Program-made: the position numbers and the translations under genes
Assembly (NCBI GenBank): GCA_945787505.1
Contig: CALZHC010000012.1
Location: 1 to 37,318 of the forward strand
Origin: an uncultured Alistipes sp.
GTDB lineage: Bacteria; Bacteroidota; Bacteroidia; Bacteroidales; UBA932
Direction: 5' to 3'
DNA length: 37,318 bases
Shown: piece by piece, positions 4,403 to 27,119 of the stretch
Position numbering within the stretch: position 1 is the stretch's first letter
Layout of the letters: each line of letters opens with the position of its first letter
Notes under the pieces: generated by a model
Seen by the model: the letters and a program-made list of their open reading frames with translations, nothing else
Told to the model about the DNA's origin: nothing
The model's database searches: none

Positions 4403-7400
4403 ATGAGTATATACAAAAGCGCTATTAACAAGCCGGTAACGACTATACTGATTTTCATAGCCGTTATTATCATCGGTATCTTCTCTTTTCTGAAGCTCCC
4501 GATTGACCAGTTCCCCGAGATGGAACCTCCTTATGTGACCGTGCTTACTACCTACCCCGGTGCAAGTGCTTCACAGGTCGAAACGAATGTAACCAAACTG
4601 ATTGAAAATGGTCTCAACTCAACTGATAATCTGAAGGAGATCACTTCCAAATCCAAGGACAACATGTCTGTGGTTACACTTGAGTTGGAGTGGGGAATCA
4701 ATATGGATGAAGTAATCAACGATATCCGTTCAAGCATCGATATGCTTAAGGATAACCTCCCGGACGGATGTATGACCCCGTTTATCTTCAAGTTTAGTTC
4801 AAGTGCAATGCCTATCTGTCAGTACTCGATTACTGCAGATGAAACTTACTCAGGTTTGGACAAACTCCTCAATGATGAGGTGATTCCACAGCTCAACAGG
4901 ATTAACGGAATCGGAAACCTCTCGCTGGCAGGTACACCTGAAAGGTATATTTATGTAAACATCAATCAGGAAAAACTCGACTCATACGGTATTCCCATGG
5001 AGACAGTCGGTCAGGCAATCTCTGCAAACAACCTGAACCTCTCTTCCGGAATCGTCAAGATGGATAAGGAACAGTATAACCTTCAGGTAAGAAGTGAATA
5101 TGTTGAGAGTGACGAAATCAAGAATATCGTAGTCAAGACTACACCTGCTGGCAAAAAGATATTTGTAAAGGACCTTGCCACTGTAAAGGATACCATCCGT
5201 GACCTCTCCCTCGATGAAAAGACAAACGGACGTGAAAGTGTAAGGCTTATAGTGACCAAGCAGACCGGAGCCAATACCGTACAGGTATGTAATGACTTGC
5301 GTGAAGAACTCGGAAGAATCAGTGAAACCCTTCCTTCAGACGTTAAAATCGAACCTATCTACGATTCTTCCGAAGAGATCAAGAATGCTATCAACTCCCT
5401 TGAAGAGTCTATTCTCTATGCATTGGTGTTCGTGGTACTCGTAGTGCTTGTCTTCCTTGGCAAGTGGAGAGCTACTATCATCATCGGTCTTACCATTCCT
5501 ATATCTCTCGTAGTAGCATTCATATATCTGATGCTCAGTGGTAGCTCGTTGAATATCATCTCTCTTTCTTCCCTCTCCGTAGCGATTGGTATGGTGGTGG
5601 ATGATGCGATTGTGGTTCTTGAGAATATCGACAAGCATATCGAACGCGGTGCATCTCCACGAGAAGCTGCGATTTATGCGACCAACGAGGTGTGGATCTC
5701 CGTGATTGCTACCACATTGGTTATCGTTGTGGTGTTCGTGCCTCTGACAATGCTCACAGGTATGGCAGGTATCATGTTCAAGGAACTTGGCTGGATCGTG
5801 ACAATAGTCGTATGTACATCTACAGTCGTGGCTATTTCACTTACCCCTATGCTATGTTCTAAACTCCTCAAATCCAAGAATGTCAAGATTAATGAACGTG
5901 GTCAGATCGAAGAGCTTGAGCCCAAGCATAACTGGTATCAGAAATATGTTGTCGGCACACTTGATAAGGTGGATGCTCTCTATGCAAAGGGTCTGAGATA
6001 TTGTCTTTCACATAAGAAGAGAACCATCGGTGTGATCTGTCTCTTGTTTATCGCCTCTCTTGTTCCTGTCGGATTGGGATATGTTGGAACAGACTTCATG
6101 CAGCAATCGGATAATGGACGTATGACAGTGACAGTCGAACTCTCCAGAAGTACCAGGGTTGAGCAGACTGCCAAGCTGGCACGTCACCTTGAACAGCGTT
6201 TTATAGCTCTAATACCTGAAATTCAGATTATTTCCTCATCTTGCGGTTCGAATGAAGATGGTGGTGTATCAGGACTCTTCTCCTCTACTACCAACAACTC
6301 CATTTCAATGACCATCAGGTGTAGCAAGAAATACGAACGTGAGAGAACCATCTTCGAACTTGCTGAGATAGTTCGTCAGGAACTCTCTCTCTATCCTGAA
6401 ATAGTCGACTACCAGTGCTCTACATCTTCAGGTATGGGATCCGGTGGTGGAAATACCGTGGATGTAGAAATTTACGGTTACAGCTTCGATGAGACCAATA
6501 TCTATGCACAGCAGGTAAAACAGGCTATTCAAGAGAAGATTCCTGCAGCACGTAACATTGACGTTTCACGTGAAGAGGACCGTCCTGAACTTAATTTGGT
6601 CCTTGACAAGGCTAAACTTGCCGAGCATGGACTCAATACTGCAACCGTTTCCACTTATGTAAGGAACAGGGTGAATGGTATGTCGGCCGGTTATTTCAAG
6701 GAAGACGGTGACGAATATGATATTATCGTAAGACTTGAAGAGGTTAACAGAAACTCTATCAACGATATTGAAGACCTTTCAATTCCTACTCCTACCGGCA
6801 AGATTATCAAGGTCAAGGAACTGGGTCACGTCGAAGAATACTGGGCTCCCCCTGTAATTGAAAGAAAGAGCCGTCAGCGTACTGTGAAAGTATCTGTAAT
6901 GCCTTACGGAACCTCTCTTGGAGAACTTGCAACGCAGATAAAGGAAGTGTTGAAGGACCTTCCTGAACCTAACGGAATATCTGTAAGACTGGGTGGTAGT
7001 TACGAAGACCAGCAGGATACTTTCGGAGATATGGGAATGCTTTTAGCTCTTATTGTCCTTCTTGTATATATCGTGATGGCTTCCCAGTTCGAGTCCTTCT
7101 CGAAACCTGCAATTATCATGATGTCAGTACCTTTCGCTGTCTCAGGCGTTATCATTGCCCTTTGGGTTACAGGAGTCTCTCTTGATATGATCGGCGCATT
7201 GGGTTTCATCATGCTGGTGGGTATCGTGGTGAAGAATGGTATTGTTCTTGTAGACTACATCAATTTGATGAGAGACAGAGGATACGAACTCAACGAGGCT
7301 ATCGCACTCTCAGGTGCATCACGTCTGCGTCCTGTCTTGATGACTGCATTTACCACCCTGCTCGGTATGCTTCCTATGGCTTTGAGTAGTGGTGAAGGTT

Positions 7401-13875: not shown

Positions 13876-13892
13876 AATATTCATTAAGATGA

Positions 13893-13900
13893 CAAAGATA
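13893..13900 (-). promoter_or_regulatory. -7 box for ricT
   Basis: TATCTTTG on the minus strand, a full match to TAnnTTTG, ending 17 nt before the ricT start codon. It faces the plus-strand box at 13913-13920 across 12 bp. No convincing -33 TTTG is visible. Confidence 0.55.
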
Positions 13901-13912
13901 AATAAAAACAAG

Positions 13913-13920
13913 TATATTTG
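13913..13920 (+). promoter_or_regulatory. -7 box for the 13942 membrane protein gene
   Basis: TATATTTG, a full match to TAnnTTTG, ending 21 nt before the ATG at 13942. Its -33 zone falls on the opposing ricT -7 box, so the two promoters overlap. Confidence 0.5.
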
Positions 13921-13941
13921 TGGTAAATAATAAAATTAGAG

Positions 13942-14484
13942 ATGAATAATAGTAAGAATCCGGTAGTAAAATACCTTATAAGAACAGTAAAATCGTTCGT
14001 TTTTTTCAATATAGTCTTTCTGGCTATCCTCTCGGTCCTGATATTGATAACACCTGAGTACAGCTTTGACATGATGTTCTCGAATGTGGGCGGAGTCCTG
14101 AGGGAGGGTTCATGGCCGAAGGTGATGGCACTCTTCTTCGTGGTGGCCCTACTCTATCCCAAGCTGACATATGTCAAGAAAGAGACCATCATATACGGTG
14201 ATTTTGAGGCCAACAGAAAGATTATCCTCGATGCCTTTGCTTCAAGGGGATATGAGTTGGTTAATGAAGATTCGGAAAGACTCTCTTTCAGGCTTTCCTC
14301 TGTCTTTAACCGTCTGATGAGGATGTTCGAGGACGAGATTAGTATAACCAAAGGGGAGTCTGTACTGATTCTTCAGGGTTCCAGAAAGGAGATCCTCAGA
14401 ATCAGCGGTACGATTACGTTCCTGTCAAAAAAAGAGAACGCTGACTCTTCAGATAGCGAGTCAGCAGAAGAGACTAATGAGTAG
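13942..14484 (+). CDS. Small inner-membrane protein of unknown function
   Basis: A 180-residue protein that I do not recognise. It has two likely membrane helices, at about residues 18-37 (FVFFNIVFLAILSVLILIT) and 59-73 (PKVMALFFVVALLYP). A soluble C-terminal domain of about 100 residues follows, with a strand-helix-strand look (IYGDFEANRKIILDAFASRG, then YELVNEDSERLSFRLSS). The tail (NADSSDSESAEETNE) is acidic. The topology suggests both termini in the cytoplasm. It is a single-gene unit with its own -7 box, divergent from ricT, and its last 11 bases overlap the convergent DUF3109 gene. Coding status is supported by length, promoter and codon pattern. Confidence 0.75.
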   Translation: MNNSKNPVVKYLIRTVKSFVFFNIVFLAILSVLILITPEYSFDMMFSNVGGVLREGSWPKVMALFFVVALLYPKLTYVKKETIIYGDFEANRKIILDAFASRGYELVNEDSERLSFRLSSVFNRLMRMFEDEISITKGESVLILQGSRKEILRISGTITFLSKKENADSSDSESAEETNE

Positions 14485-15064
14485 CTTCTGCTTTTGCAGC
14501 ATATTCCAAAGCAGCATAGAATTCTTCTCCAAAGGCCTCTATCAGAGGAACCTTTAGGAATTGGTACACTTTTATGTTCTCTTTCTTTCCCTTTTTGAAA
14601 GCATCTTCGCAGATGTTCCAGCGGTGGAGGTTAAGAGCTGTGGTACCGTTGGACAGGTGTGAGACTCTTATGGGATAGAGGCGGCACGAGATGGGCTTTA
14701 CGAATTTTGATTTCCCGTTGCACCATGAACGCTCTATTGCACAGTAGCATGCTCCGTTTTTTTCGAAATTGCAATAGGCACACTCCTCGCTGTTGCCAAG
14801 AAGTGGAGTCACGCAGTCTGAGTCGCTGTCTATTGTGAAGAATCCCTCCTCTTCTATCTTTGCTATTCCTTCAGGGCGCATGAAGGGTGTGATGAGGTGG
14901 TAGTTATCCTCGATCATCTGTGGTTCGGCTTCTTCCATAGGAGCTCCGCTGTCCCCTATAATACAGCAGGCTCCGGCACATTTTTCATAATCGCAGGCAA
15001 AGTATTCGTCCAATATTTCACCGGAGACGATGATGTCGTCTATCATTATGGGCATATTATTCAT
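14474..15064 (-). CDS. DUF3109-family cysteine-rich protein
   Basis: A 196-residue cytoplasmic protein of the DUF3109 family (recognised by pattern). Eleven or more cysteines are grouped as CDYEKCAGACC near residues 24-34, DCVTPL, ECAYCNFEKNGACYCAIERSWC near 93-115, and SCRLYPIR near 126. This layout resembles the Fe-S or zinc CxxxCxxCC clusters of YkgJ-like proteins, so metal binding is likely, though the metal is not known. The core phrase VKPISCRLYPIRV is strongly characteristic. It overlaps the M16 gene upstream by 8 nt, which suggests co-translation. Its 3' end overlaps the convergent membrane-protein gene by 11 nt. Confidence 0.88.
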   Translation of the reverse strand: MNNMPIMIDDIIVSGEILDEYFACDYEKCAGACCIIGDSGAPMEEAEPQMIEDNYHLITPFMRPEGIAKIEEEGFFTIDSDSDCVTPLLGNSEECAYCNFEKNGACYCAIERSWCNGKSKFVKPISCRLYPIRVSHLSNGTTALNLHRWNICEDAFKKGKKENIKVYQFLKVPLIEAFGEEFYAALEYAAKAEATH

Positions 15065-17792
15065 CTTTCTGTGGTTTTATTATCTGCCACGAGATAGTGA
15101 CGCTGTCAAGTATCTCTGAAAGCAGTTCGTTCAGGGTTATCTCTGTAATAGAATCAAGTACGTTTTTTTTCTCTTTAAGGAAATCTTTCTGATCTATATA
15201 TCTCTCATTGAAAATTGACAGCCAGTATTCCGGATTGGTGGCGGCATTGTATTCATCCATAAGTACCAGAATCTTCTTTGATGACTCCGTTTCAGCGTGG
15301 GATATTCCTGTGGCTAAGAGCTCATGGATTACGGTCATTATCCTATCCTCTGCATCGAAGGGGATGTCGCAGGTCATCATAGTGAACTCCAGTATTGCCG
15401 ACTCCTTGGGAAAACGGTTGAATCTCAATGATGAGGATGCCATTATTCCCTCCCTGTAAAGCTCGGTAAGCACTCGTTTTTCTATGATGGAGCACAATAC
15501 CCTTGCTGCAAGCCTGTCGTTTATCTTCATAGGGCTTGGGAAGAGAATCTTCAAGTTATGGTACTCTCTGTCGAAATTCATACTGATGGGGACAGAGGAT
15601 CTTTTGTCGTAGGGTGAAAATGAGAGGCTCTTGTTTTCATTCACTATTCTGACAGTGGGTTTGGCAGGAAGGACTCCTATAGTTCTTATGGCAGAATTGG
15701 TCAGTTCCAGATCATCAGTATCTCCAACGAAGAAAAATTGAAAATCTGCAGGGTTACTGAAAAATCTGTTTATTGTGCCAATCATAGATGTATACTCCTG
15801 ATATGTGGGGAGTGACTCGTTCCTTTTCCTTTTCTTTTCAAGTATGAACTGCCGGGTATTGGTAGAGAAGTCTGTTGCCGGATTCTCCCTCCAGATCTTC
15901 AGGAAGTTTTCGAAAGCCAATGTGTCGGGTTTCGTTTCTTTAAAGTATGCTGAAACCAACGTGAGAAATTCGTCTGAATAATCTTTGTGAAAATGTCCCC
16001 TTATAATCCTCTGCTCCATTGTAACCTCTCTTTCGATGGTACAATGGGCACCGCGCTGAATTTGCGAAAAGCGATACTTATCCATGCTGTCTACTATGGA
16101 GATGTTGCAAAGATGGTTGAGGTACAGGTTATAACGTCGTATGTTACTGTCAAGGAGCGAGAGTCCGCCCTTGGCTGCCGCTTCAAACCATATCCAACCC
16201 GACTTGTTTTTCATCTCCTTGAAGTGGATTCTCACTCCGTTGGGAAGTTTTCTGGATGTGGAACCGATTACAGGATTGACACTTTTGGCGGTAAATGTCG
16301 ATTTGGTCTTGTATTCGGGAACTTTGGCAACTTCTGCCGCATAGAGGAGGGTGTCGGATGCACAGCTCTCCAATGTAGGTATGACCAGCGAGTCCAGCGT
16401 GCCTTCGCTTGCGCTTGAAAGGACTCTGTAACTTGTTCGCAGTGTATCGGAGAGAACCCCTCTTATGTAGTCGTTGATGCGGACGATGTCACTCTTGCGG
16501 TCTGCCACCTCAAGATAGGCTTTGTAAAGCGATGGACTGAAGATGCCGTATCCGTTTACATAATTGTCAATGCACAGGCGCGTGAGGTGGCTGTTCTGTC
16601 CGGAGACATTCTTTGTGTAGAGATAGTCTCTTTCGAAGTATGACATCTCCTTTGCTCTTGAAAACTCTTGCTCAAGTGCTCCCTCACGGCACAGAAGGTT
16701 CAGTTCGGAGGAGAGAAAACAGTAGGCATCGGCGAGATACCTTTCCGGTGTCTCTATTCTGATTATGAACGAACCGGTTCCTTTATGCCTGATTGGCTCT
16801 GCCTTCAGGCTGATGAATGGAATATTATCTCTAAGTATATGTCTATGAAGTCTTTCGTATAGAATGTTCAGCGTAAGGTCTCTGTAATAGGTGGCCACAA
16901 AGGGGAATGCAGTCCTTCGTAGTGCCGGATGGATATCTTCCGTTATGTATTCAAATGTTATAGATGGGGTATGTGCTTCAGAATCCGTGGTATATATGAT
17001 TGCCGGAGCAGCGGCGCGCGCAGAGCCTGCGGCTGTGTCCACAGAGACTCCCATAACTGATTCAGCTGATACTACAGGCGTGGGGCGGCTCGGTTTAGGT
17101 ATTGTCTGGAACAGTGCCTCTATCTTCATTTGGGCCTCTGAAGGGTTGATATCGCCGCATATTATTATGGACTGGACATCGGGCTTGCAGTACATGCCGT
17201 AAAAATTTCTTACATCCTCTGTCCCTATACTGTCAATCTCCCTGCAAAGGGAATCGAACATAATGCCGGAACCCGGAGCAAGCCGGGAGGCAAGAAGATT
17301 TTTCAGAAGGACCTTGCCTCTGCCGACAGTCCTATCATTTATCTCGACAAATCCTGAAATATTGTAGAGGGCCAGAAGCATTGAGTCCACGACTTTGCTG
17401 TTCTTCTTGACAGGGATGTTGGGGAAGTGGAAAGATATGGCACCGTTCTCTTCGGAGAGTTGAATACCTTTGTTTATTTCTACTCCCATACTGGCGAGGA
17501 AGGCCAAAATTTCACCATCAGGAAAATTTCTGCTTTGTGTCAGAGACATGGTCTCAATAAGTGCTGGAATAGTCTTCTGGCAGGGGCTGTTATTAATATC
17601 AACTTGTTTTATAACAAGAGAAAAATCTGCAAATCCCTGTATGGTATTATTTTTGATAACGTAGTATGTCAGACCGTTGTCCATTTCTTTCTTAAGCACT
17701 GAAGGATCGTTCTCAATGACCCCTACGAACTGTGCATTCACTGAAAAAATGGAAGCCAAAAACAAGAATAGAGTTAAAAATATCGCTTTCAT
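15057..17792 (-). CDS. M16 peptidase-family protein, catalytic motif lost
   Basis: A 911-residue two-module M16 (pitrilysin) family protein with a signal peptide (about residues 1-20, LFLASIFSVNAQ), so probably periplasmic. The N-terminal DNGLTYYVIKNN is the standard M16 opening. The zinc motif HxxEH should lie at residues 77-81, but the bases encode ALIET: both histidines are gone and only E80 remains. The downstream glutamate segment (EEWR type) is also replaced (RGKVLLKNLL). It is therefore unlikely to be a zinc protease. M16 proteins often work as an active plus an inactive subunit; no active partner is in the window. The gene is full length with no frameshift, so it is a preserved pseudo-enzyme rather than a pseudogene. 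It overlaps the DUF3109 gene by 8 nt. Confidence 0.88.
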   Translation of the reverse strand: MKAIFLTLFLFLASIFSVNAQFVGVIENDPSVLKKEMDNGLTYYVIKNNTIQGFADFSLVIKQVDINNSPCQKTIPALIETMSLTQSRNFPDGEILAFLASMGVEINKGIQLSEENGAISFHFPNIPVKKNSKVVDSMLLALYNISGFVEINDRTVGRGKVLLKNLLASRLAPGSGIMFDSLCREIDSIGTEDVRNFYGMYCKPDVQSIIICGDINPSEAQMKIEALFQTIPKPSRPTPVVSAESVMGVSVDTAAGSARAAAPAIIYTTDSEAHTPSITFEYITEDIHPALRRTAFPFVATYYRDLTLNILYERLHRHILRDNIPFISLKAEPIRHKGTGSFIIRIETPERYLADAYCFLSSELNLLCREGALEQEFSRAKEMSYFERDYLYTKNVSGQNSHLTRLCIDNYVNGYGIFSPSLYKAYLEVADRKSDIVRINDYIRGVLSDTLRTSYRVLSSASEGTLDSLVIPTLESCASDTLLYAAEVAKVPEYKTKSTFTAKSVNPVIGSTSRKLPNGVRIHFKEMKNKSGWIWFEAAAKGGLSLLDSNIRRYNLYLNHLCNISIVDSMDKYRFSQIQRGAHCTIEREVTMEQRIIRGHFHKDYSDEFLTLVSAYFKETKPDTLAFENFLKIWRENPATDFSTNTRQFILEKKRKRNESLPTYQEYTSMIGTINRFFSNPADFQFFFVGDTDDLELTNSAIRTIGVLPAKPTVRIVNENKSLSFSPYDKRSSVPISMNFDREYHNLKILFPSPMKINDRLAARVLCSIIEKRVLTELYREGIMASSSLRFNRFPKESAILEFTMMTCDIPFDAEDRIMTVIHELLATGISHAETESSKKILVLMDEYNAATNPEYWLSIFNERYIDQKDFLKEKKNVLDSITEITLNELLSEILDSVTISWQIIKPQKDE

Positions 17793-25214: not shown

Positions 25215-26256
25215 CCTGATTCTTCATTGATTCTTCGTGAATCAGTGTAAAGATCTTTTCTATAAACGATGTGTCGAGTGAGTGTTCCTTTGCGTGGACA
25301 AGCGCACTCTCAAGCACGTTGTTCCATCTTTGGGGTTGCAATACAGGCAGCCCCATTTTTCTTTTCAGACTGCCGATACTTCTTACAGCATCCATTCTTC
25401 TGGCCAGAATGTCGATTAGCGTCTCGTCAAGTGAATCGATAGTGCTTCGCAACTCTTCCGCCATCCTGTCAAAGTCTTTCTCCTTGTCTGTCGAAACCGG
25501 AATCTTCAGGTGGGATAGTATCTCGCCCAGCATTTGGGGAGTTACCTGCTGGCCGGCATCGCTAAGGGCGCGTTCGGGATCCGGGTGACACTCTACCATA
25601 AGTCCGTCAAAGCCGAAAGTAATTGCCTGCTGAGCAATCTCTTCCACCAGTCTTCTGTCTCCGCATATATGGCTCGGATCGCAAATGATTCTCATCTTCG
25701 GAAATCTCCTTCTGAGTTCAACGGGAATGTGCCACATGGGTGGATTTCTGTAGATTCCGTCTGTATAGCTGTAAAAACCCCTATGGAGTGCTGTGATATT
25801 GCTTAATCCAGAGCGTGTGAGCCTCTCGATTGCTCCGCACCAAAGTTCTATGTCGGGATTGAGGGGGTTTTTGACCATTACGGGAATGTCAGTTCCAGAG
25901 AGTGCTGATGCTATTTCGGATACCATAAACGGATTTCCGGTGGTTCTGGCTCCAATCCAAAGTATATCTATTCCCCCTTTTAATGCTGATTCTATATGTT
26001 TGGGATTTGCCACCTCTGTGGCACACTTGAGTCCGTACTTCATGGCTGCTTCTTTAAGCATCAGAACTCCGGCATCGCCTATTCCCTCAAATGAACCTGG
26101 ATGTGTTCTGGGCTTCCAGATTCCGGCACGGAGAACCTCTATCCCCAGCTTGCTTATTCCCTCCGCACACTTGAGAATTTGCTCTTCTGATTCCAAAGAG
26201 CATGGACCTGCTATTATATATGGTCTATCATTCTTCATTTTTGTCAAAAAACGCAT
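25201..26256 (-). CDS. Bifunctional DAHP synthase / chorismate mutase (AroQ type)
   Basis: A 351-residue fusion of the shikimate entry enzyme with chorismate mutase. The N-terminal about 265 residues are type I-beta DAHP synthase: IAGPCSLESEEQ, GIEVLRAGIWKPRTHPGSFEGIG and DPSHICGDRR. A C-terminal AroQ domain (about residues 268-345) begins LRSTIDSLDETLIDILARRM, with the conserved Arg and RSIGSLKRK. From established work on relatives in Porphyromonas and Prevotella, the mutase domain also mediates feedback by prephenate. No other aromatic amino-acid gene is in the window. The start could also be 26238 (MKNDRPY); 26256 is chosen because relatives carry a comparable N-terminal extension. Its 3' end overlaps frr by 14 nt. 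Confidence 0.93.
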   Translation of the reverse strand: MRFLTKMKNDRPYIIAGPCSLESEEQILKCAEGISKLGIEVLRAGIWKPRTHPGSFEGIGDAGVLMLKEAAMKYGLKCATEVANPKHIESALKGGIDILWIGARTTGNPFMVSEIASALSGTDIPVMVKNPLNPDIELWCGAIERLTRSGLSNITALHRGFYSYTDGIYRNPPMWHIPVELRRRFPKMRIICDPSHICGDRRLVEEIAQQAITFGFDGLMVECHPDPERALSDAGQQVTPQMLGEILSHLKIPVSTDKEKDFDRMAEELRSTIDSLDETLIDILARRMDAVRSIGSLKRKMGLPVLQPQRWNNVLESALVHAKEHSLDTSFIEKIFTLIHEESMKNQVRQS

Positions 26257-26267
26257 AAACTTGTGAA

Positions 26268-26298
26268 CAAAAGTATTTAAAGATTATGAAAATTACAA
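26268..26298 (-). promoter_or_regulatory. Promoter of the DAHP synthase / chorismate mutase gene
   Basis: On the minus strand TACTTTTG at 26275-26268 is the -7 box, and TTG at 26298-26296 lies 20 bp upstream as a possible -33 element. The box ends 11 nt before the 26256 start. Confidence 0.55.
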
Positions 26299-26307
26299 GC
26301 AAGGAGT

Positions 26308-26315
26308 TATCTTTG
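26308..26315 (+). promoter_or_regulatory. -7 box for the cytochrome b gene
   Basis: TATCTTTG, a full match to TAnnTTTG, ending 26 nt before the ATG at 26342. The -33 zone reads TATG (26285-26288), a weak match. It is divergent from the DAHP synthase promoter. Confidence 0.5.
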
Positions 26316-26341
26316 CCAAACAAATCAAATTTTTTAAAGAA

Positions 26342-27037
26342 ATGGCTAATATTTTTACTTCTTCTATCGGAAAGAAGGTAATCATGAGCGTTACCGGTCT
26401 GTTCCTGATACTTTTCCTTCTCTTGCACGGCACTATCAATGCTTTGTATATCTTCAATCCTGAATGGTTTGTTTCGGGTTGTGAGTTCATGGCATTGCCG
26501 ATTGTGACCATTATGGTTCCGGTTCTTGCTGCCGGATTCATTATCCACATCATCTATGCATTCTATCTCTCTTACACCAACCTGAAGGCTCGTGGAAATC
26601 AGAGATATGCAGTAGCCAATAAAAGTGCAAGCGACGGATGGGCAGCGAAAAATATGCTTGTTCTCGGTATCATCGTTCTCGGATTCCTTGCATTCCACCT
26701 TACACACTTTTGGGCTGAAATGCAGCTTAAAGAATTCATGGGTGTCGCTCATGAGGATCTTATCAGCCCTGTAACCCTTATGGAAACAACCTTCAAACCA
26801 TGGTGGGTTACCCTTCTTTATATTCTCTGGTTTGTAGCTGTATGGTTCCACCTTACACATGGTTTCTGGAGTGCTCTCCATACTTTCGGATGGAACAATA
26901 ACAAATGGATTGGAAGGCTCAAATGTATCTCCTACATCGTTGCAACCATCATTTTCGCTATCTTCGCTGCAGTTGCTATCGTTGCATTTATCCGTGCTAA
27001 CGGATTTTGCTCTTGCTGCTGTACCGGCTGCTGCTAA
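26342..27037 (+). CDS. Fumarate reductase/succinate dehydrogenase cytochrome b subunit
   Basis: A 231-residue five-helix diheme membrane anchor of the Bacteroidota/Wolinella FrdC type. It begins SSIGKKVIMSVTGLFLILFLLLHG, the standard first helix. Candidate heme-ligand histidines are H29, H69, H119 or H122, and H170 or H173. It passes electrons between menaquinol and the flavoprotein/Fe-S subunits. Those subunits (sdhA/frdA and sdhB/frdB) normally follow directly, but here a terminator comes 30 nt after the stop and pgk lies beyond. The last nine residues hold six cysteines (C223, C225-227, C230, C231), which is unusual. With five helices and a cytoplasmic N-terminus the tail would face the periplasm. 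Confidence 0.9.
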   Translation: MANIFTSSIGKKVIMSVTGLFLILFLLLHGTINALYIFNPEWFVSGCEFMALPIVTIMVPVLAAGFIIHIIYAFYLSYTNLKARGNQRYAVANKSASDGWAAKNMLVLGIIVLGFLAFHLTHFWAEMQLKEFMGVAHEDLISPVTLMETTFKPWWVTLLYILWFVAVWFHLTHGFWSALHTFGWNNNKWIGRLKCISYIVATIIFAIFAAVAIVAFIRANGFCSCCCTGCC

Positions 27038-27066
27038 TAGGAATCATTAATCCATATACATAAAAT

Positions 27067-27119
27067 AGACGGTGACTAAAAAGTCTTTATTGACTGATTA
27101 GTCACCGTCTTCTTTTATT
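27067..27119. terminator. Bidirectional terminator between the cytochrome b gene and pgk
   Basis: A perfect 13-bp stem pairs 27067-27079 (AGACGGTGACTAA) with 27098-27110. The loop holds a second 4-bp stem (AGTC 27082-27085 with GACT 27092-27095). The plus side is followed by TCTTTTATTATT, and the minus side by TATTTTAT, so both converging genes can end here. Confidence 0.88.

Follow-up and report, generated by a model that had tools for sequence, protein, structure and literature searches.

A recurring cysteine-rich C-terminal tail on the fumarate reductase cytochrome b of an uncultured Alistipes sp. and related Bacteroidales

The diheme cytochrome b (FrdC) encoded by an uncultured Alistipes sp. 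ends ...RANGFCSCCCTGCC, with six Cys among the final nine residues, and Cys-rich ends of differing form recur among its orthologues. As a type-B Sdh/Frd diheme subunit FrdC is otherwise ordinary, its unusual part being the tail. The tail is real; that it recurs, that it is confined to residues beyond 217 and that the protein belongs to the family were established directly. The recurring but differing tails, which seemingly arose repeatedly, suggest a job such as metal binding outside the membrane. The window, which is the whole stretch of 37,318 nucleotides that was analysed, includes the following features.

26342..27037, + strand: diheme cytochrome b of the frdC/sdhC type, 231 aa, TIGR02046 (NCBIfam profile and AF2 fold)
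26426..26428, + strand: His29, candidate distal-heme ligand in the second half of helix I (invariant in 39 sequences; analogy with Wolinella His44)
26546..26548, + strand: His69, candidate proximal-heme ligand near the middle of helix II (invariant in 39; analogy with Wolinella His93)
26696..26698, + strand: His119, candidate distal-heme ligand near the middle of helix IV (invariant in 39; analogy with Wolinella His143)
26849..26851, + strand: His170, candidate proximal-heme ligand near the middle of helix V (invariant in 39; analogy with Wolinella His182)
26900..26998, + strand: helix VI, the last membrane helix, residues 187-219 (AF2 secondary structure)
27005..27034, + strand: Cys-rich tail FCSCCCTGCC, residues 222-231, predicted periplasmic (sequence and AF2; DNA identical in the sister species)
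27017..27034, + strand: CCTGCC, a CCxxCC (tetracysteine-like) motif at the extreme C terminus (sequence; same form as CCSGCC in L139, from another family)
27035..27040, + strand: tandem stop TAA TAG (sequence; same in L002)
27068..27119, no strand given: inverted repeat GACGGTGACTAA/TTAGTCACCGTC and a T-rich run (read by eye from the sequence)

The NCBIfam profile search matched residues 7-217 of FrdC to TIGR02046 (cytochrome b558 subunit, Sdh/Frd) at 185.8 bits against a cut-off of 96, and a Pfam search with the 231-aa protein at E 0.001 returned no family. The AF2 model of FrdC, at a mean pLDDT of 80, shows five long helices, with residues 187-219 forming the last, and matched both Chloroflexus SdhC with Z 20.5 (9lay_C) and Wolinella FrdC with Z 15.2 (1qlb_C; model residues 1-227 to chain residues 19-243); by the model and these matches, the five-helix fold of type-B anchors is present. 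FrdC thus resembles these cytochromes in its five membrane helices, conserved candidate heme-ligand His and fold (Z 15-20), and differs from them in a Cys-rich tail that lies outside the profile match, which ends at residue 217, and in a gene unlinked from frdAB. Tail residues 225-231 have pLDDT under 50 and no confident structure in the AF2 monomer. The window neighbours of frdC, assigned by reading ORFs, are a DAHP-synthase-like gene and pgk, and the inverted repeat is likely a terminator between frdC and the convergent pgk. An antisense ORF of 217 aa (26228-26881, - strand) covers most of frdC and is probably spurious.

The N terminus of Wolinella FrdC lies inside; with helix I running outward as in Wolinella and with five helices, the C terminus of FrdC would be periplasmic, and homology places the tail, past helix VI, on the periplasmic side, which is the distal-heme side. 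The candidate heme-ligand His were matched to those of Wolinella by their order along the chain. H29, H69, H119 and H170, together with H173, are invariant in the 39-sequence alignment, and the candidate proximal ligand is H170 or H173. According to the available part of PMC10739449, the Wolinella distal heme is bound by His44 and His143 near the periplasmic quinol site, and the proximal heme by His93 and His182 toward the cytoplasmic surface.

The six tail Cys had been placed correctly in the original prediction (C223, C225, C226, C227, C230 and C231), with codons at 27008-27034 and the stop at 27035-27037. At 1.1-1.5% Cys, the binomial chance of at least six Cys in nine residues is 1e-10 to 1e-9 per protein, and the chance of six of nine genome-wide is about 1e-6 over 1400 genes, a round figure for gene number. 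The prediction had also asked that a frame change at the gene end be excluded, and no sign of one was found. In the sister species (G001) the reading frame is the same as that of frdC and 30/30 tail bases are identical. The DNA of another region of the Alistipes genome is 90-94% identical to that of G001, so that the two are different genomes and separate assemblies, and 11 alignment columns differ between the frdC contig and G001 over the 100 bases from 27042 on. A sequencing or assembly frameshift as the origin of the tail, which would suit the short TGC repeats at the end of frdC and the lack of the exact tail in most orthologues, is highly improbable and was rejected: the second species' assembly has the same frame and DNA, the frame stays open up to the tandem stops, related but different in-frame Cys tails occur in other species, and the alternative-frame end DFALAAVPAAANRNH is unlike any orthologue end inspected. 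The prediction had named tail-less orthologues together with a read-supported frameshift as what would count against the tail; tail-less orthologues are many, but no trace of a frameshift was seen.

Between frdC and its G001 counterpart, 9/231 codons differ, all of them outside the tail and 4 of them synonymous. The frdC DNA is unusually conserved between the two, and a nearby gene differs locally by up to 17 bases per 100. Because the whole of frdC is so conserved, the unchanged tail in G001 confirms the frame and says little on selection.

Orthologues were drawn from family and order genomes, together with named genome contigs (the best 80 among the matches listed). The sample covers part of 138 matched family genomes and part of 113 matched order genomes, and the fractions given here apply to that sample. 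A total of 201 orthologue ORFs yielded 161 distinct sequences, 19 of which lie outside the home family. No orthologue ORF was obtained from L142 or from L020 and L062, both truncated by contig ends, and these three were left out. The tail was defined as the residues aligned past FrdC residue 217. Among the 161 distinct orthologues, Cys made up 120/1128 tail residues (10.6%) versus 389/35003 (1.1%) in the rest of the protein; at least one tail Cys was present in 53/161 and at least two in 29/161. The original prediction knew of no diheme b-subunit with such a feature; this recurrence of Cys-rich ends in related diheme b subunits shows that the tail is no singular case.

In 22 of the 29 tails with at least two Cys the terminal pair is CC, and the Cys count is odd in 10/29, each of which has three. 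Recurring ends in the home Bacteroidales family are CCC, CACC, CGCC, CCACC, CCGCC, CCCC and CGCGHxH. Individual examples are DICCF (L003), LICACC (L019), VICC (L125), NCGCC (L127), NGCCACC (L061), FCGCC (L064), ICCC (L060), LLCCGCC (L083), YCCCC (L109), LCGCC (L076), EACC (L106) and ECGCGHIH (L130), the CGCGHIH/CGCGHAH form being found in L130 and L133. One orthologue (L086:3001-3894, JABUTQ010000042.1) carries a long extension past helix VI that is rich in Lys, Glu and Gly, contains 12 Cys and is metallothionein-like; it had no Pfam match. A FrdC from another Bacteroidales family (L323, G210:C91:79700-80700) has a separate 7-Cys tail with DKPC repeats, which use differing synonymous codons. 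Near relatives are tail-less: L004 ends IVPIPVA, and the same-genus sequences L006-L018 have 0 Cys past residue 217. In the order-level sample, 89/90 loci were matched, and five genomes present twice left 84 distinct sequences (two from one genome). Of these sequences from outside the home family, 5/84 (L139 with CCSGCC, L266, L267, L268 and L287) show at least two Cys among the final nine residues and L323 carries its 7-Cys tail, whereas the other 78/84 lack a long Cys tail and contain at most one Cys among the final nine. Seven loci with titles pointing to digester, soil or site samples (L069, L073, L085, L087, L091, L097 and L115) have 0-1 tail Cys, and habitat follows the tree.

A tree of 161 rows was built from the protein body without the tail by a quick method, with 49/157 inner branches weak. 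On it, no fewer than 15 changes are required to explain the state of at least two tail Cys, and starred branches force 8 of these; the count does not distinguish gain from loss. Shuffled labels need 27 changes, so that the trait is also clustered on the tree. At least two Cys in the last nine residues occurred in 33/85 FrdC versus 2/466 other ORFs of the same loci (Fisher p about 1e-27, overstated because the rows are related). The 466 control ORFs are neighbours in the collected loci, many of them mutually homologous and some possibly spurious, and are not a random proteome; their last nine residues contain 1.1% Cys against 1.3% elsewhere, with no C-terminal excess. General Cys richness of the tailed proteins was rejected: over the 120 rows with at least 55% identity, the body contained on average 2.52 Cys in the 27 rows with at least two tail Cys, 3.0 in the 19 rows with one and 2.55 in the 74 rows with none.

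A scan of the own 1.5-Mb assembly gave five matches to CC-(0 to 6 nt)-CC-stop, of which two, frdC and sufD, end an open frame of more than 39 codons, and CxCC-stop had nine matches, none ending a frame of more than 33 codons. A genome-wide Cys-tail habit was thus rejected for the CC-x(0-2)-CC and CxCC forms, with sufD as the sole other long-frame match. SufD is a cytosolic protein; in this genome (L223:511-1518, G000:C35) it ends DCRKCCKNCC and scored 209.6 against TIGR01981, below the cut-off of 222. The genus members compared have close counterparts, several other Bacteroidales have Cys motifs of shorter length, and the Cys spacing of SufD (CRKCCKNCC) is well kept in the genus, unlike that of FrdC.

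Codon use bears on the possibility that the tails come and go without function, by drift tolerated under weak constraint past helix VI, where Cys would be costless in a reducing milieu and TGC repeats could slip; this explanation is somewhat doubtful. It is in keeping with the great turnover of tail length and pattern and with the lean of tail Cys codons to TGC (105 TGC and 15 TGT, versus 284/389 TGC in the body), TGC-TGC being the commonest neighbouring pair (27/38). Eight close pairs also show no clear purifying selection, with 4 synonymous changes, 2 non-synonymous changes and 3 gaps at tail Cys codons and 12, 5 and 8, respectively, at other tail codons; both non-synonymous Cys changes fall within the pair L083/L093, the sole pair of the eight that aligns Cys with another residue. 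These pairs therefore do not tell selection from drift. Drift, however, should not favour Cys about 10-fold at the tail alone, nor give so many CC ends, and nothing similar was seen in other ORFs nearby. Mixed TGC/TGT neighbours (11/38) are about as frequent as independent codon choice predicts, and TGC slippage would not readily give the tails with His or the long, hydrophilic ones.

Linkage of frdC to its partner genes was surveyed in the 29 home-family genomes with both frdC and frdA above the family cut-off. The two genes lie within 0.7 kb of each other in three (G023, G024 and G025), on one contig at 32-145 kb in five (G007, G020, G021, G026 and G027) and on separate contigs in 21; G021 and G027 are single-contig assemblies in which they are far apart. 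FrdA and FrdB searches of the own assembly (G000) found no partner, only a 134-bit relative, which is probably NadB, and a 19-bit fragment. FrdA and FrdB are present in the sister species, where the frdAB stretch (L039) aligns as far as its base 6785 with the full 6241 bases of G000:C60, and from its base 16348 onward with G000:C34, starting at the first base of that contig. The intervening 9.5 kb of L039, which contain frdAB and an mdh-like gene, thus fall between the end of one G000 contig (C60) and the start of another (C34); an assembly gap is the best explanation for the seeming lack of frdAB, and true loss is unsupported. The description of frdC as an orphan gene therefore holds for its separation from frdAB, which is seen in the majority of the family genomes surveyed, but not for the missing partners. 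Searches with FrdA and FrdB did not find frdAB in 4/19 genus assemblies (G000, G003, G006 and G008), and this was traced to a contig gap for G000 only. In the sister species (L039:8307-14825, G001:C3) frdAB lies near a malate-dehydrogenase-like ORF (13884-14825), an arrangement seen in the four family members compared, where frdC is located elsewhere, a split respiratory operon. Bacteroides/Prevotella FrdCAB belongs to the same enzyme class and the same order; in the available part of PMC5210497, B. thetaiotaomicron FrdC has two heme sites and its genes form an frdCAB operon, from which the separation of frdC and frdAB here differs.

The reading considered most plausible, and held tentatively, is that the tail is thiolate-rich and binds soft metals or other thiophiles. 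The C terminus would exit helix VI on the periplasmic, distal-heme side and carry the thiolate-rich tail as a short and flexible end; the organism being a strict gut anaerobe with a reducing periplasm, the tail thiols would be reduced, its ligands would be soft, thiophilic Zn, Cu, Fe or As-type metal ions, and the benefit may be that metal ions are buffered or held near the enzyme. The roughly 10-fold tail Cys excess, the ordinary body Cys content of the tailed proteins, the repeated changes of state, the frequent CC ends, the low-Cys control ORFs and the absence of VKOR from the genomes searched count in favour of this reading, and so do tail forms suggestive of ligand chemistry, namely CGCGHIH/CGCGHAH, the CCxxCC of FrdC and L139, the 12-Cys L086 and the 7-Cys L323; ligand binding in particular is favoured by CGCGHxH and the long Cys tails. 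Counting against it are the unconserved Cys spacing, the tail-less near relatives, the close pairs that do not tell selection from drift, the lack of metallothionein matches for L086 and L323 and the large tail-less majority of orthologues outside the family. Because Cys spacing and number vary among species, a single fixed site seems not to be formed, and a short, flexible, membrane-anchored tail of variable spacing appears more in keeping with the binding of soft metals or thiophiles than with a relay, a single disulfide or a structured site.

The tails share the Cys density of metallothioneins and Cys-rich metal-binding tails, and those of L086 and L323 are long, hydrophilic and repeat-like, although neither matched metallothionein models at E up to 1. 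The FrdC tail differs from metallothioneins in being only ten residues long and membrane-anchored and in having no profile match. Engineered tetracysteine tags are of the CCPGCC type, and CCTGCC in FrdC and CCSGCC in L139 have the sequence form of such biarsenical-binding CCxxCC motifs.

The original prediction had proposed that a periplasmic tail could form disulfides or bind metal. Its position past helix VI is periplasmic by homology, and metal or disulfide chemistry is the leading class of explanation. A disulfide or protein contact, by which the tail would crosslink FrdC in a QFR dimer or dock a periplasmic partner, is unlikely. C-terminal CC pairs could form intermolecular bonds, and the Wolinella QFR is a homodimer in crystals, as given in the available part of PMC10739449; the odd Cys counts, the varying spacing, the lack of confident tail structure in the monomer model and window neighbours that offer no evident partner argue against such a contact. 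The disulfide-forming enzyme VKOR was absent from 39/39 genomes searched, the own included, which also speaks against it and weakly supports free tail thiols.

C-terminal dithiols act in mercuric reductase and high-Mr thioredoxin reductases and provide a model for a redox or sulfur relay, in which vicinal thiols would carry sulfane sulfur or take electrons from menaquinol or the distal heme, giving the enzyme a side activity as a reductase of disulfides or polysulfide in the periplasm. The predicted position on the distal-heme side and the vicinal CC ends of 22/29 tails are consistent with a relay, yet spacing is not conserved and the long 7- and 12-Cys tails are unlike a relay, and the proposal is judged quite improbable.

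Literature searches at the level of titles and abstract openings, with most subscription papers outside their scope, gave no account of a Cys-rich tail on a Frd cytochrome b, and the available parts of PMC10739449 and PMC5210497 do not mention a Cys-rich FrdC C terminus. A broader proposal built on the thiolate reading is possible, if short of likely: the periplasmic C terminus of FrdC may have repeatedly become a metal- or sulfur-handling thiolate tail in gut Bacteroidales, ranging from a terminal CC to metallothionein-like forms with 7-12 Cys, and may physically couple fumarate respiration to the handling of metal (or polysulfide) in the periplasm. The tail is small enough for deletion, grafting and measurement, and the natural CCxxCC end might permit biarsenical-dye labelling of the native complex. 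If the tails reflect drift, they would be a clear example of how the ends of proteins evolve with a bias in strict anaerobes. Fumarate reductase is central to the energy metabolism of gut Bacteroidales, and a thiol-rich tail that changes state many times at one spot of it points to an unrecognised function at the periplasmic face.
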